The notes under the pieces were generated by a model. That model did not search any database, had not been told where the DNA came from, and worked only from the letters and a program-made list of their open reading frames with translations. Source: Bdellovibrio sp. (GTDB taxonomy: Bacteria; Bdellovibrionota; Bdellovibrionia; Bdellovibrionales; Bdellovibrionaceae). Taken from it: a stretch of DNA of 57,057 bases. Shown here piece by piece: positions 1,946-12,142 of the stretch. The stretch spans positions 1 to 57,057 of the forward strand of contig JACMQO010000074.1 in the NCBI GenBank assembly GCA_014376935.1, in the 5' to 3' direction. The translations under genes and the position numbers were made by a program. Every line of letters starts with the position of its first letter. Position 1 is the stretch's first letter.

Positions 1946-3271
1946 ATGAATTTTTTGAAATCAAAGCGCCAAGAACTAGAACGGCAACATACCCTGAACG
2001 AGCTTAAGCTTGCTCTGAAGCAAAAAGAGCAGGTCGTGTACCGCGAAAACGGAAACCGGCATGCGAACGGGAAAACGTTTTTAAAAAAGATTGAACAGAT
2101 CGCGCCAAAAATTGGAGTTACGCGAAACGCCGATATTTCTTATTTGGGGCATGCTCCGTACCCGGTCATTCAAAGTTGCCGCCCGAATTATTTAACCCAT
2201 TCTAGCTTTGGGCAAAATTCGGGGGCTCAAGGCAAAGGGCGAAATCAAACCCAAGCTACGATTTCATGTTTGATGGAAACCATTGAAGGTTTTTGTTGTG
2301 AACCCCGTAACCCCGAACTGATCCGCGCCAGTTATGATTTTTTAAAAGACCACAAGCTAGTCTATGATCCCCGAAAGTTTGTTCGTGACAGAAGCTTAGT
2401 CGCGCCGAATTTAAAAGAATCTTTCATGTGGACTCCCGCGTACTGTTTAGTTAGTCAGCTTGAGGTTTTGGTTCCGGCGGAACTGATTTATTTTCCATTT
2501 TTAGCAGCCGATTATGAAACGCGCAGTTTGTTTCCAAGTGGCACGAATGGTTTAGCGTCGGGATCGACGTATCTAGAGGCGACGATTCATGCCCTTTACG
2601 AAGTGATTGAAAGAAATTATATTTTTCATTTTGAAACGGGCGACATCAAAATTGAAGCTTTGTACGATCAAGAAATAGAAGACGTAAGCCTTCGTCAATT
2701 TAAGAAACAGATGGCGAACGAATATGAAGTTCAGTTTTATGCTTTAGAGCATCAGCAAAATAAAAACTTACCGTGCATCCTTTGTGCTGTTGTTAGTCAG
2801 GGTGAAACGCACTTAGGCTGGGGACTTTCAGGAACGGTCGATATTTCGATAAGCCGCGCTTTTAGCGAAGCGCTTCAAAGCCTAGCGGCAAATATCAGCG
2901 GCACTCGAGAAGACTTAGCTTCGAACGAAACTGATGGAATGTCTAAAGGTGAAAACGATATCTTTGATAAAACACCCCAGCCGCAAAAAAGAACCTTGCG
3001 AATAAAAGATTATAAAAAGCGTGTTCACGATCAAATATTTAAATCTTTAAACGAAGAATTAGATTTCATTTTAAAGTGGTTGCGGCAGCGCGGATGCACG
3101 AATGTATTTGTGGCCAACTTAACCCGGGTGGGGGTCGATGTTCCAGTCGTTAAGGTGGTTATTCCGGGGTTTGAAGTTCCTCAGGCGTATAAGGTAATAA
3201 ATACGGGAACTCAGCTTGATGTTTATAAAAAGAAATTCCCAAATATCGGGATTAAGGGTTTTTATGCCTAA
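1946..3271 (+). CDS. YcaO-family ATP-dependent peptide backbone-modifying enzyme (likely thioamide-forming)
   Basis: The 441-residue protein has the YcaO ATP/Mg2+ signature blocks: SGAQGKGR at 92-99, SCLMETIE at 107-114, HALYEVIERN at 215-224, AFSEALQ at 305-311 and GTRED at 319-323. YcaO enzymes phosphorylate a backbone amide oxygen so that a nucleophile can replace it. With a TfuA partner the usual product is a thioamide. The first 60 residues are charged and helical and are not part of the core. No strong Shine-Dalgarno precedes the ATG at 1946, so the start is the weakest part of the call. The tfuA-like gene overlaps its last bases, and a candidate precursor and sulfur carrier genes follow. 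A heterocyclase role is less likely because no cyclodehydratase partner or oxidase is present. Confidence 0.85.
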   Translation: MNFLKSKRQELERQHTLNELKLALKQKEQVVYRENGNRHANGKTFLKKIEQIAPKIGVTRNADISYLGHAPYPVIQSCRPNYLTHSSFGQNSGAQGKGRNQTQATISCLMETIEGFCCEPRNPELIRASYDFLKDHKLVYDPRKFVRDRSLVAPNLKESFMWTPAYCLVSQLEVLVPAELIYFPFLAADYETRSLFPSGTNGLASGSTYLEATIHALYEVIERNYIFHFETGDIKIEALYDQEIEDVSLRQFKKQMANEYEVQFYALEHQQNKNLPCILCAVVSQGETHLGWGLSGTVDISISRAFSEALQSLAANISGTREDLASNETDGMSKGENDIFDKTPQPQKRTLRIKDYKKRVHDQIFKSLNEELDFILKWLRQRGCTNVFVANLTRVGVDVPVVKVVIPGFEVPQAYKVINTGTQLDVYKKKFPNIGIKGFYA

Positions 3272-3938
3272 AATAAAAATTTACGCGGGCTTAAGTGTAT
3301 CAGAAAAAATCGTAAAAAAATATTTGCCGCAGGCGCAGTTTTCAAAACCCATCAAAAGAAATGATCTTTATGACGATCTAAAAAATGGCGTGCAAGTGAT
3401 CGGCATCATTGATGGAGAATTTCTGCAAAGTCTTTCTGTTAGTCCCACCGAAATTCACGACGTCTTACGTTGCGGTGTTTCGGTCTACGGGGCGTCTAGT
3501 ATGGGGGCCATGCGGGCGGCTGAACTTTCAGAATATGGAATGGTCGGTTGCGGAGAAATTTTTGAACATATCCAGAGTGATTCTTATTTTCGTGATGATA
3601 AGTTAGGGCAAATTTATTTTGAGGGAATGGGTATTGAAAGTATACCCTTTGTTGATTTCTATATGGGCGCCAAGGGTTTAGTTCGGCGCGGAGTTGTGTC
3701 AAAAGCGCACGCGAATCTGTTGATAGAAGTTTACCTAGACCTTCATTTCTCGCGGCGTAATTTCAGTTCATTAGAGGCCATCGTTCGCAAGCATGCCAAC
3801 GGGGCTAAGTTGTTGATCTCAGTAAAAAAGATCAGAAACCAAATGGTGTACCAAAAAAGAGCGGACGGAATTTCATTGTTAAAGCACATTGCGAAAAATT
3901 TAGCCTTACATGATAAACAATTGCGGTTACTTTTTTGA
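3264..3938 (+). CDS. TfuA-like protein, partner of YcaO in thioamidation
   Basis: The 224-residue product has the TfuA core motif GASSMGAMRAAEL at residues 76-88, with the GMVGCGEIFE stretch close behind. In characterised systems TfuA hydrolyses a thiocarboxylated ThiS-like protein through a Ser-Lys pair to release sulfide, and it helps YcaO bind its substrate. The Ser of the SSMG block is the likely nucleophile here (inference). The ATG at 3264 was chosen because the protein then begins MPKIKIYAG, as in the family, and it overlaps the ycaO stop (3269-3271), which suggests translational coupling. An in-frame ATG at 3216 would add 16 unlikely residues. Confidence 0.85.
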   Translation: MPKIKIYAGLSVSEKIVKKYLPQAQFSKPIKRNDLYDDLKNGVQVIGIIDGEFLQSLSVSPTEIHDVLRCGVSVYGASSMGAMRAAELSEYGMVGCGEIFEHIQSDSYFRDDKLGQIYFEGMGIESIPFVDFYMGAKGLVRRGVVSKAHANLLIEVYLDLHFSRRNFSSLEAIVRKHANGAKLLISVKKIRNQMVYQKRADGISLLKHIAKNLALHDKQLRLLF

Positions 3939-3954: not shown

Positions 3955-4002
3955 ATGAAAACAAAATGTCAGCCTAAACCCATGCAACAGAAGGATGAAT
4001 AA
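3955..4002 (+). other. 15-codon upstream ORF joined to the candidate precursor gene by TAATG
   Basis: ATG at 3955 opens MKTKCQPKPMQQKDE, and its TAA stop shares one base with the ATG of the next gene. Such an arrangement can couple translation. No good ribosome-binding site precedes it, so it may be chance. Confidence 0.2.
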
Positions 4003-4169
4003 TGAGAAAAAATGTTAAAGCTAATTTAGAACAACTTAATGAAAGCCCTCTTAAAACGATCGGGTCAGCAAAAGCAGACGGAAGTTCTGTGAAAAATGGA
4101 ACGATGGGTTGCCATGCGAACGTTGTTAAAAAGGGAACGATGGGCGCAATGGCTCAAGCGAAAAAATAG
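4002..4169 (+). CDS. Candidate RiPP precursor peptide with 12-residue repeat
   Basis: This 55-codon gene sits 63 bases after tfuA and is preceded by AAGGA at 3991-3995, well spaced from its ATG. The peptide is basic. Residues 31-42 begin KNGTMG and 43-54 begin KKGTMG, an exact 12-residue period, while residues 1-30 look like a leader (NLEQLNESPLKTIG). The single Cys (37) and His (38) follow the first GTMG. A Gly-rich repeated C-terminus behind a polar leader, next to YcaO and TfuA, is what one expects of a thioamidated RiPP precursor. No peptidase or exporter gene is adjacent. The identity of the modified residues is unknown; the Gly-containing GTMG motif is my guess. Confidence 0.6.
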   Translation: MRKNVKANLEQLNESPLKTIGSAKADGSSVKNGTMGCHANVVKKGTMGAMAQAKK

Positions 4170-4195
4170 TTTTATAATTCAATTTTGATAGTCTT

Positions 4196-4222
4196 AAAAA
4201 ACCGTCGTCATGACGGTTTTTT
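4196..4222 (+). terminator. Rho-independent terminator after the candidate precursor gene
   Basis: AAAAACCGTC and GACGGTTTTT form a 10-bp stem around a 5-base loop, followed by a T run. It separates ycaO-tfuA-precursor from the rhodanese-ThiF gene, so the two groups are probably transcribed separately or joined only by read-through. Confidence 0.8.
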
Positions 4223-4266
4223 AATTTCCATTGATCGTTTTGTTCGCGATCGGTTACCATATAAAG

Positions 4267-5421
4267 ATGAAACAGACTCTACAAGAACGCCTTCTTTTTT
4301 TAAATAAAACAATTGCTAAAATTTCAGCCTTAGAATTAAAGGCCAGCTTGGATCAAGTCAAATTGATCGATATCCGTGAAGAGTCTGAGTGGCTTGACGG
4401 AAAAATTCCGACGGCAGAAACGGTGCCGCGTGGATTTTTAGAATTGCGGATTGAAAATATAGCGCCGAAACGCGATCAAGCCATTGTTTTGTACTGTGCT
4501 GGCGGCACCAGATCTGTTTTAGCCGCGCAAAGTTTAATCGAAATGGGTTACACGCAGGTGCGATCTTTAGATGATGGAATAAAAGGTTGGAAAGACCAAG
4601 GACAAGCCCTTGAAGCGCTACCGCGAATCGATTTATCTTACCAACAAAGGTATTCAGCGCAGATGCGTTTACCGCAAGTCGGGCTTGAAGGACAAAAAAA
4701 ATTATCTGCGGCTAAAGTTTTAATCGTGGGGGCTGGTGGGTTAGGTTCTCCGGCGGCTTTTTATTTGGCGGCGGCCGGGGTCGGAACAATCGGTATTATT
4801 GATGATGACGTCGTTGATCTTAGTAATTTGCAAAGACAGATTTTGCACACCACAGACCGGGTTGGACTTTCGAAAGTCGATTCGGCGCAAATGACTTTAA
4901 AAAATTTAAATCCGAACCTGCAAATTAATGCTTACAAGATGCGGTTAACGGATAAAAATATTGATCAAATTTTACCTGAATATGATGTCATCGTGGATGG
5001 CTGCGATAATTTCGATACGCGTTTTTTAGTGAATGATGCCTGCCTTAAACATAAAAAAGTGAACGTTCACGGTTCAATTTTCTGGTTCGAAGGGCAAGCC
5101 ACCGTTTTTTGTGCCAAGGATGGTCCATGTTATCGTTGTCTACACCCCGAGCGGCCGACGGCAGACATGGCCCCGAACTGTGCCGAGGCGGGTGTGCTAG
5201 GGGTTCTGCCGGGGATCATCGGTCTGATCGAAGCGACCGAAGTCATTAAACTCATTTTGGGTCTTGGGGTCAGTTTAGTGGGGCGGCTTTTACTTTATGA
5301 TTCATTGCAGATGGAGTTTCGTGAATTAAACGTTCGAAAAAACAAAGATTGTGTGGCCTGTGGGAATCCAGAAAACATAAAATACCAAAAGGCTTCAACG
5401 GCCTGCGAAGTAAAGGCGTAA
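4267..5421 (+). CDS. Rhodanese-ThiF/MoeB fusion, E1-like sulfur-carrier activating enzyme
   Basis: Residues 15-118 form a rhodanese domain with the persulfide Cys in CAGGTRS (77-83). Residues 130-384 are a ThiF/MoeB/HesA adenylyltransferase with GAGGLGSP (155-162), NLQRQ (187-191), CDNFDTR, a CYRC...CVAC zinc site and the PNCAEAGVLG Cys. Such proteins adenylate the C-terminal Gly-Gly of a ubiquitin-like carrier and turn it into a thiocarboxylate. In MOCS3/MoeZ the rhodanese is C-terminal; here the order is reversed. ATG 4267 gives a normal N-terminus, while an in-frame start at 4231 would begin just after the terminator. The carrier gene follows after two bases. It could serve thioamidation, cysteine or cofactor synthesis. 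Confidence 0.85.
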   Translation: MKQTLQERLLFLNKTIAKISALELKASLDQVKLIDIREESEWLDGKIPTAETVPRGFLELRIENIAPKRDQAIVLYCAGGTRSVLAAQSLIEMGYTQVRSLDDGIKGWKDQGQALEALPRIDLSYQQRYSAQMRLPQVGLEGQKKLSAAKVLIVGAGGLGSPAAFYLAAAGVGTIGIIDDDVVDLSNLQRQILHTTDRVGLSKVDSAQMTLKNLNPNLQINAYKMRLTDKNIDQILPEYDVIVDGCDNFDTRFLVNDACLKHKKVNVHGSIFWFEGQATVFCAKDGPCYRCLHPERPTADMAPNCAEAGVLGVLPGIIGLIEATEVIKLILGLGVSLVGRLLLYDSLQMEFRELNVRKNKDCVACGNPENIKYQKASTACEVKA

Positions 5422-5423
5422 AG

Positions 5424-5696
5424 ATGGCAAAAATGATATTGGCTCCGGCTTTTCAAAAAATCACGCAGGGTGAAAAATGGGTCAAAGTAGAAAGTTCTAC
5501 TTTGATTGAAGCGATTCATGAGTTGGATCAAAAGTACCCCGGAATCAAAAGTAAAATTGTGGGTGATGCCGGTCAAATTTTAAATTATGTTTCTATTTTT
5601 TTAGGAAAAGAAGACGTCCGCTATTTACAAGGATTAAAAACAAAACTAGAGCCCCTTGACGAAGTCAGCATTCTGGTCGCCATAGCCGGGGGTTAG
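5424..5696 (+). CDS. Ubiquitin-like sulfur carrier protein (CysO/MoaD/ThiS family)
   Basis: The 90-residue protein ends in Ala-Gly-Gly, the site that is adenylated and thiocarboxylated by an E1-like enzyme. The pattern YPGI near residue 40, EDVRYLQGL near 66-74 and DEVSILVAIAGG at the end fits the CysO branch of the beta-grasp carriers. It starts two bases after the rhodanese-ThiF stop, with AAGGCG as ribosome-binding site, so the two are made together. In YcaO-TfuA systems a ThiS-like thiocarboxylate is the sulfur donor, which makes this the obvious candidate here. In other bacteria CysO feeds CysM for cysteine synthesis; no cysM lies in this window. Confidence 0.85.
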   Translation: MAKMILAPAFQKITQGEKWVKVESSTLIEAIHELDQKYPGIKSKIVGDAGQILNYVSIFLGKEDVRYLQGLKTKLEPLDEVSILVAIAGG

Positions 5697-8527: not shown

Positions 8528-9059
8528 CACGCGACGGGTTATCCCGTTCCGATTGTGCAGTCAGAAGGTTTGGGTTTTGGGGTGGCGTATTTATTTTCGC
8601 CTTTTCTTGAGGGCGCTATAGGTTACAATAAGATGTCAAAAGGTCAGACTGATAATTACTTTGGCGAAGAAAAAAAGACACCAACATATTTTATTCCGCG
8701 AATCTAAAATATTTTATTTTGCCATTTAAGTACGGTTCGCTGTACGTGGGCGGCGGCTATCAGCAGGGAGAGGTTCAATCTTACTTCCGTCCGTCCTTGT
8801 TAACGGGACCCCGAGCGGATTCAAAAACATCCTATGGCGGAGTCACCTCGGCCATAGGTTTTCAAGCCAAGGCCAGCGAAAACAGTGGCTTGACTGGATA
8901 TTTGATCTTTCGGTCACTTACGCGCCGGGCACATCGATCACGTCTAATTTCGTTTTAGATGAAAAGCCGAATTTAGGTAATTTTATGGGAAAAAGTCATT
9001 TAGAAACGAAAGTGGCTTACGGGTTTCAGCCACTGCTATTGGTTGGGGCTCGGTTTTAA
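8528..9059 (+). pseudogene. Frameshifted outer-membrane beta-barrel protein
   Basis: Three consecutive frames carry barrel-like sequence. The first (8528-8707) has GLGFGVAYLFSPFLEGAIGY. The second (about 8708-8900) has KYGSLYVGGGYQQGEVQSYF and SAIGFQAKASENSGL. The third (about 8895-9059) has DLSVTYAPGTSITSNFVLD and ends with LLLVGARF and a stop. Alternating aromatic and glycine-rich strands plus a C-terminal Phe are typical of outer-membrane barrels. Two frame changes and the missing signal peptide show it is broken. It lies between the propeller gene and a small lipoprotein gene. A sequencing error at one of the shifts cannot be ruled out. Confidence 0.6.
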
Positions 9060-10831: not shown

Positions 10832-10918
10832 TGGTGCGCGATGGGGGACTTGAACCCCCACACCTTGCGGCATACGCACCTCAAGCGTACGTGTCTACCA
10901 ATTCCACCAACCGCGCAC
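10832..10918 (-). tRNA. tRNA-Leu (anticodon GAG)
   Basis: Read leftward from 10918, the sequence folds as a class II tRNA of 87 bases with encoded CCA. It has acceptor stem GTGCGCG/CGCGCAC, D-arm with GGTAGACAC, anticodon loop CTTGAGG (GAG at 10882-10880), a variable arm around ATGCCGCAAGGTGT, and T-arm GGGGGTTCAAGTCCCCC. It decodes CUC/CUU. A fragment of its 3' half recurs at 9959-9979. Confidence 0.95.
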
Positions 10919-11032: not shown

Positions 11033-12142
11033 ATGTTTCGAAAAGTGGCTCAGAATGCCTTATTATCCATTGTTAGCTTTCTGCTGACTTTCATTGTCAT
11101 GAATTTAGCGTGGTATCTATACGATCGCGCATTTCAGTCGGCGGTTTTTATTTCGACAGATTATAAACTGCCTTCGAAAACGAATTTAAAGAAGGCTGAT
11201 CTTAATTCGTTGGGTTTACCTGAAACTTATTTGGATTCAGAAAATAGTGGAAGTCTAAAGCTATTCTACGGGTTGGATGAAAATACCGTGCAGGGGGATT
11301 CAGTTCGGTCCGTCAAATACCAAGCGTCGACGGGGCAGGCGATTTACGACTTTACGGCGACATTAGATGCTCATAAATTTCGGGTCGTTCCTAACCAGAA
11401 TAAACAGGGTGATCCTAAAATTACTTTTTTGGGATGCTCTTACACGTTCGGCACCGGAATCGGTCATGATGAAACCGTTGGTGCTTATCTGCAAAAACTT
11501 CAGCCCGGGGCCGATGTAAAAATGGTCGCCAAAGCCGGGTGGGGAGCCAATGATATTTTATTTGAGCTTGAGAAAAATAGAACGAATTACTCTGAAAAAA
11601 GTGTTTATATTTACCAATTTATCGACGATCATTTAAGGCGCACTTTTTTTCAGCCCGCGACACTTTATAATTCGGCCGCCAGTCATCTTTTATTATCGCA
11701 GCCGTATTACGCTTTTGAAAATAATGACTGGATTTATAAGGGAAGTTTTCAAGATGCAAAACCGTTGTATCTGGTGCTTTCTAAAATTTTACCTTATTTT
11801 CCGGCCTTACAAAGAATGCAAGGTTTATGGGGTAACCCAGCGGCCGACGGGACCAAGCAATTTGAATCTTTGGTCAAAAAAATTCAGCTGCAAATTTTAA
11901 ATCTGAATCCGCAGAATCGTTTGATCGTGGTGATCTATCCGTACTCTGCAAATCGCTTAGGCCCCGTGATCGCCCAGGGCTTAAAGGCGCAAGGTGTAGA
12001 AGTTTTAGATTTATCTGGCGTTGATTTCGAAGCGGCGACGGCAAATCGCCTATTTATACCTAACGACGTGCATCCTACTAAATATACTAATTTCTTATTA
12101 GCCGAAATGTATCAAACGTATTTACAGCAGAATCAAAAATAA
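11033..12142 (+). CDS. Membrane-anchored SGNH/GDSL-hydrolase-like protein
   Basis: Residues 8-32 are a hydrophobic anchor. A domain of about 330 residues follows, with block I FLGCSYTFGTGIG (Ser in G-C-S-Y-T), a GWGANDIL block resembling the Gly/Asn oxyanion block, and a C-terminal DVHPTKYTN containing the Asp-x-His pair of SGNH hydrolases. This suggests a periplasmic esterase or O-acetyl/acyl transferase acting on envelope or exopolysaccharide. It is transcribed rightward and meets another SGNH-type gene tail to tail with a gap of about 14 bases. The substrate is unknown. Confidence 0.65.
   Translation: MFRKVAQNALLSIVSFLLTFIVMNLAWYLYDRAFQSAVFISTDYKLPSKTNLKKADLNSLGLPETYLDSENSGSLKLFYGLDENTVQGDSVRSVKYQASTGQAIYDFTATLDAHKFRVVPNQNKQGDPKITFLGCSYTFGTGIGHDETVGAYLQKLQPGADVKMVAKAGWGANDILFELEKNRTNYSEKSVYIYQFIDDHLRRTFFQPATLYNSAASHLLLSQPYYAFENNDWIYKGSFQDAKPLYLVLSKILPYFPALQRMQGLWGNPAADGTKQFESLVKKIQLQILNLNPQNRLIVVIYPYSANRLGPVIAQGLKAQGVEVLDLSGVDFEAATANRLFIPNDVHPTKYTNFLLAEMYQTYLQQNQK

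Follow-up and report, generated by a model that had tools for sequence, protein, structure and literature searches.

What is encoded by the short frame that follows ycaO and tfuA in a contig of Bdellovibrio sp. (JACMQO010000074.1, positions 1 to 57,057, called the window here), and do the adjacent enzymes act on its product? An earlier note, made from the letters of the DNA, had read this frame as an easily missed RiPP precursor with a perfect 12-residue repeat, suggesting two core units. We examined the frame, its repeat, the neighboring genes and related loci, and found that the peptide is probably the substrate of the adjacent YcaO-TfuA pair, with two core units and a dedicated sulphur relay. 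The features concerned are collected in Table 1.

Table 1. Features of the YcaO-TfuA locus in the window
Feature	Position	Strand	Evidence or description
YcaO enzyme	1946..3271	+	PF02624 E 2.4e-50; PDB 6pe3 E 3.4e-13
TfuA	3264..3938	+	PF07812 E 1.5e-25; PDB 6xp8 E 3.9e-22
Candidate precursor peptide gene	4002..4169	+	55 aa, ATG to TAG, MRKNVKANLEQLNESPLKTIGSAKADGSSVKNGTMGCHANVVKKGTMGAMAQAKK
Duplicated segment	4088..4144	+	copies 4088-4108 and 4124-4144, 19/21 nt identical, 36-nt spacing
Predicted intrinsic terminator, 3' of peptide gene	4194..4224	+	13-nt perfect inverted repeat with T run; fold z-score -3.5
Rhodanese-ThiF (MoeB/MoeZ-like) E1	4267..5421	+	PRK08762 513 bits, above cut-off; PF00899, PF00581
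ThiS/MoaD-like sulphur carrier, Gly-Gly end	5424..5696	+	PF02597 E 9.2e-8; SAMP1 model 38.7 bits, below 60 cut-off

The coding signal of the short frame was scored with a codon-usage model trained on 31 long ORFs from the contig. The frame reached 0.31 per codon, which is the 81st percentile among true gene fragments (0.23 +/- 0.09) and above every wrong-frame control (-0.53 +/- 0.25, zero reaching 0.31). A Shine-Dalgarno-like AAGGA lies directly 5' of the ATG. The frame is short and has no relatives, as a chance open frame or non-coding spacer might, but such an explanation is scarcely credible against this coding score, the Shine-Dalgarno-like site and the terminator. The existence of the gene, as the earlier note had it, is confirmed, and by these signals it is a genuine small gene, the last in the ycaO-tfuA gene string. 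The resulting order, ycaO-tfuA-peptide-terminator, counts in favor of the peptide being the substrate of the two enzymes.

In the translation, residues 31-36 read KNGTMG and residues 43-48 read KKGTMG, and Cys37-His38 follows the first copy only, just as had been noted. The word GGAACGATGGG does occur at 4098 and 4134, 36 nt apart, and is absent elsewhere in the window on both strands. What did not hold is the description of the repeat as perfect, since the 12-mers in question share 6/12 residues and 20/36 nt. In its best register, the 21-nt repeat encodes VKNGTMGCHA and VKKGTMGAMA (7/10 residues identical), and the spacing of 36 nt corresponds to 12 codons. An exact repeat of at least 11 nt arose in 3.3% of codon shuffles, and a repeated residue 4-mer in about 3% of shuffles; therefore, the exact word alone is weak evidence. 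For the full duplicated segment we obtained P = 0.0004 at the DNA level (codon shuffle) and P = 0.002 at the protein level (residue shuffle), and a real tandem duplication is therefore likely. Tandem copies of the candidate core thus exceed chance, a feature of multi-core (thiovarsolin-like) precursors. A structured RNA at the repeat was also considered and rejected, as the Rfam search gave no match there.

The 3' end of ycaO shares 8 nt with the start of its neighbor tfuA, and the PF02624 and PF07812 matches of the two are above the Pfam cut-offs. The best NCBIfam model for YcaO was TIGR03266, the McrA-glycine thioamidation YcaO (159 bits, below the 365 cut-off), and the sole NCBIfam match of TfuA was NF033432, the corresponding McrA-type TfuA (142 bits, below 235.2). 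That the archaeal pair for McrA-glycine thioamidation is the nearest match of both, and that TfuA also matches a solved TfuA (6xp8), counts for the peptide as substrate, and that both fall below the curated cut-offs counts against it; on these scores, the McrA pair itself was not assigned. An azoline-forming cyclodehydratase (TOMM) was also rejected, with a SagD-type YcaO score of 84.8/219 bits, TfuA as the partner and a ThiF protein of the rhodanese-MoeB type. Many YcaO enzymes of RiPP pathways form azoles. Since TfuA and a sulphur carrier are present here, the reaction to be expected is thioamidation of the backbone and not azole formation. The folds of YcaO, TfuA and the carrier are clear from sequence.

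The E1 and carrier genes lie 3' of the terminator, just downstream of the peptide gene. In alignment, the E1 has a CxxGxR rhodanese loop, GxGGxGS, two CxxC motifs and the conserved Cys in NCAEAGVLG, and the C-terminal GG is invariant in 7/7 carriers compared. Close E1 homologues (E below 1e-70) were found in only 3/14 genus genomes, those with YcaO-TfuA, and the carrier in only two of these three (the contig of the third, G302, starts just before its E1). The exception to this confinement within the genus is a separate molybdopterin-type cluster of the source genome (G000:C95), with its own MoeB-like E1 and MoaD-like GG protein, the names being read from sequence. In this cluster (L099, 1048-6225), the MoeB-like E1 has a C-terminal rhodanese-like domain, opposite to the arrangement in the window's E1. 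Since the genome has this second set, the E1 and carrier of the window would not be needed as a molybdopterin pair; together with their confinement to YcaO-TfuA genomes, this leaves them best explained as the predicted sulphur supply of YcaO-TfuA. The same confinement marks the locus, by its gene content, as a predicted cluster for YcaO-TfuA thioamidation that has a sulphur relay of its own.

Of 369 phylum genomes, five were found to have a YcaO of this type, namely the source genome, G301 and G302 (same genus), G235 and G326. Among the relatives found, the closest lies on the Paraburkholderia megapolitana plasmid NZ_CP041744, where two such modules are present (YcaO 50% and TfuA 45% identical). 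Scans of genome contigs with YcaO alone and with A1 gave no close relative. Four loci from A1 (L034-L037) were set aside, as they encode long YcaO proteins and no TfuA, E1 or carrier was detected on the stretches examined. E1 and carrier adjoin YcaO-TfuA in Paraburkholderia (both modules), G301, G235, Legionella, Mycetohabitans and Rhizobium, and are not at every TfuA locus compared, e.g. that of Paracoccus. In the first Paraburkholderia module, the GG-ending carrier lies between TfuA and E1 (L033, 6993-7262) and is omitted from the PLSDB gene table.

Related clusters were also inspected for their gene content. The YcaO-TfuA/E1/carrier cluster of G301 (L045, 7124-13563) encodes another candidate peptide (11799-11963); it also has two PhyH-type dioxygenases and a Tat-signal-like protein, which suggests further tailoring there. 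In G235 (L048, 2217-7343), the E1 and carrier genes diverge from a series of two distinct YcaO genes with one TfuA, and a Lys-rich 52-aa ORF lies 3' of the carrier. Two Legionella species have a carrier-E1-YcaO-TfuA module with an ATP-grasp and a 61-aa ORF on conjugative plasmids, next to the conjugation genes (L049 and L050, 3326-8301). The genes flanking the Bdellovibrio cluster were not beside such a cluster in relatives, and no clean empty site was found. In the window, adjacent short frames at 8555-8958 resemble pieces of one outer-membrane-type protein, with no Pfam match, and are perhaps a broken gene; a tRNA gene (Rfam RF00005) is at 10835-10916 on the minus strand.

The peptide itself had no relatives in 359 genomes of the phylum and none among plasmids, phages and viral contigs. 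The best match had an E value of 0.017, which is chance level, and Pfam and NCBIfam profiles gave no match. Since no homologue was detected, conservation of the leader, repeat or core is not demonstrable, and the two-core reading is one that we infer. The small ORFs of the G301, Paraburkholderia, Legionella and G235 loci resembled the peptide no more than chance would allow, and leader homology to them was rejected because the scores were no better than those of shuffled sequences. That no homologue was found, and that the leader is like no other candidate precursor beyond chance, counts against the peptide as a substrate.

In the proposed mechanism, residues 1 to about 29 would be the leader, and the C-terminal part with its two tandem VKxGTMGxxA copies would form two modification (core) units. 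The rhodanese domain would hold the sulphur as a persulphide. The ThiF domain would adenylate the carrier's C-terminal glycine, which would then receive this sulphur and become a thiocarboxylate. TfuA would then free the carrier sulphur as sulphide for YcaO, which with ATP would replace a backbone oxygen by sulphur, probably within each GTMG unit. Except for a cysteine desulphurase to load the rhodanese, the whole of this relay is encoded within 4 kb. Amide activation with ATP by YcaO is known from published work, and archaeal TfuA is stated to hydrolyse thiocarboxylated ThiS as the sulphur donor for YcaO (PMC8153245, PMC8939145). YcaO-TfuA enzymes of low-sulphide organisms tend towards ThiS homologues (PMC13063428).

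Because the peptide gene adjoins thioamide-forming enzymes and contains a duplicated segment, the peptide is likely their substrate. The claim of a YcaO-modified precursor with a duplicated segment has good support from the coding signal, the operon position, the YcaO-TfuA partners and a non-chance repeat. Thiovarsolins derive from a YcaO-TfuA precursor whose cores are repeated (PMC6511847); by analogy, the duplicated GTMG unit is likely the modified core, used twice, and two separately modified or released cores are plausible. The data show the gene, its place between tfuA and a terminator, the duplication and a complete dedicated enzyme set; from these we infer its product's role as substrate, modification at both copies, the residue concerned and the function of the mature product. 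That there are only two copies, which diverge after GTMG and of which the first alone has Cys-His, counts against two cores. The divergence would fit a precursor that YcaO-TfuA modifies at one site, probably GTMGCH, with the second copy as a duplication relic or recognition element, and the candidate precursors of related loci show no repeats by eye. We consider this unlikely, as the two copies agree in every letter of the GTMG core and have diverged in the codons after it.

The enzymes might instead modify a large cellular protein, as with McrA or ribosomal uL16, leaving the 55-aa peptide as a bystander or regulator. The closest curated families are those of McrA-glycine thioamidation, and YcaO also modifies uL16 (PMC13063428). 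The neighboring genes examined, up to about 13 kb, included no recognisable leader peptidase or exporter, which likewise counts against the peptide as substrate. But a conserved housekeeping modification would hardly be restricted to 5/369 phylum genomes, the ycaO-tfuA gene string ends with the peptide gene, and the small ORFs vary between sister clusters, in the manner of precursors. Modification of a large protein is therefore quite improbable, and a two-core substrate of YcaO-TfuA remains the preferred reading. More tentatively, and with the odds somewhat against it, the locus may represent a new thioamide RiPP class of a Bdellovibrionota lineage, in which a two-core precursor is thioamidated in tandem GTMG units by means of its own rhodanese-E1-carrier relay.

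Characterised YcaO-TfuA products are few; a 2026 preprint counted four classes and added one (PMC13174530). Whether bacterial TfuA draws sulphur from a dedicated carrier is named as an open question in PMC8153245, and with precursor, YcaO, TfuA, E1 and carrier within 4 kb, this locus is a convenient system for it. The duplicated GTMG unit offers a built-in internal comparison for site choice.

Among known systems, the thiovarsolin pathway (varA, varY, varT; PMC6511847) likewise has YcaO and TfuA acting on imperfectly repeated cores. In VarA, however, the repeats are APR/GPR-based and number at most five, and the pathway includes a heme oxygenase-like enzyme, whereas the window cluster has VKxGTMGxxA twice, together with a dedicated E1 and carrier. 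The archaeal McrA thioglycine system provides the closest curated YcaO and TfuA models, and thiF, moaD, moeB and rhodanese genes are reported near it in several archaea (PMC5589413); its substrate is the large McrA protein, whereas the candidate substrate here is a small adjacent peptide in a bacterium. The NZ_CP041744 clusters share the E1 and carrier, but have another small ORF, several cupin proteins, an O-methyltransferase and MFS transporters. Global mining of TfuA clusters gave 613 cluster families, 797 precursor families and 2,972 singletons (PMC8120280). In these clusters, as here, MoeB/ThiS-like proteins accompany YcaO-TfuA; their small precursors vary, and the orphan status of our peptide matches this published picture of highly diverse precursors. 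The peptide and its repeat are unlike any precursor compared, a comparison that lay outside the precursor list of PMC8120280. Taken together, the enzyme set, thioamide RiPPs made with such machinery and repeated cores (thiovarsolins) are known, and the orphan precursor sequence is new.
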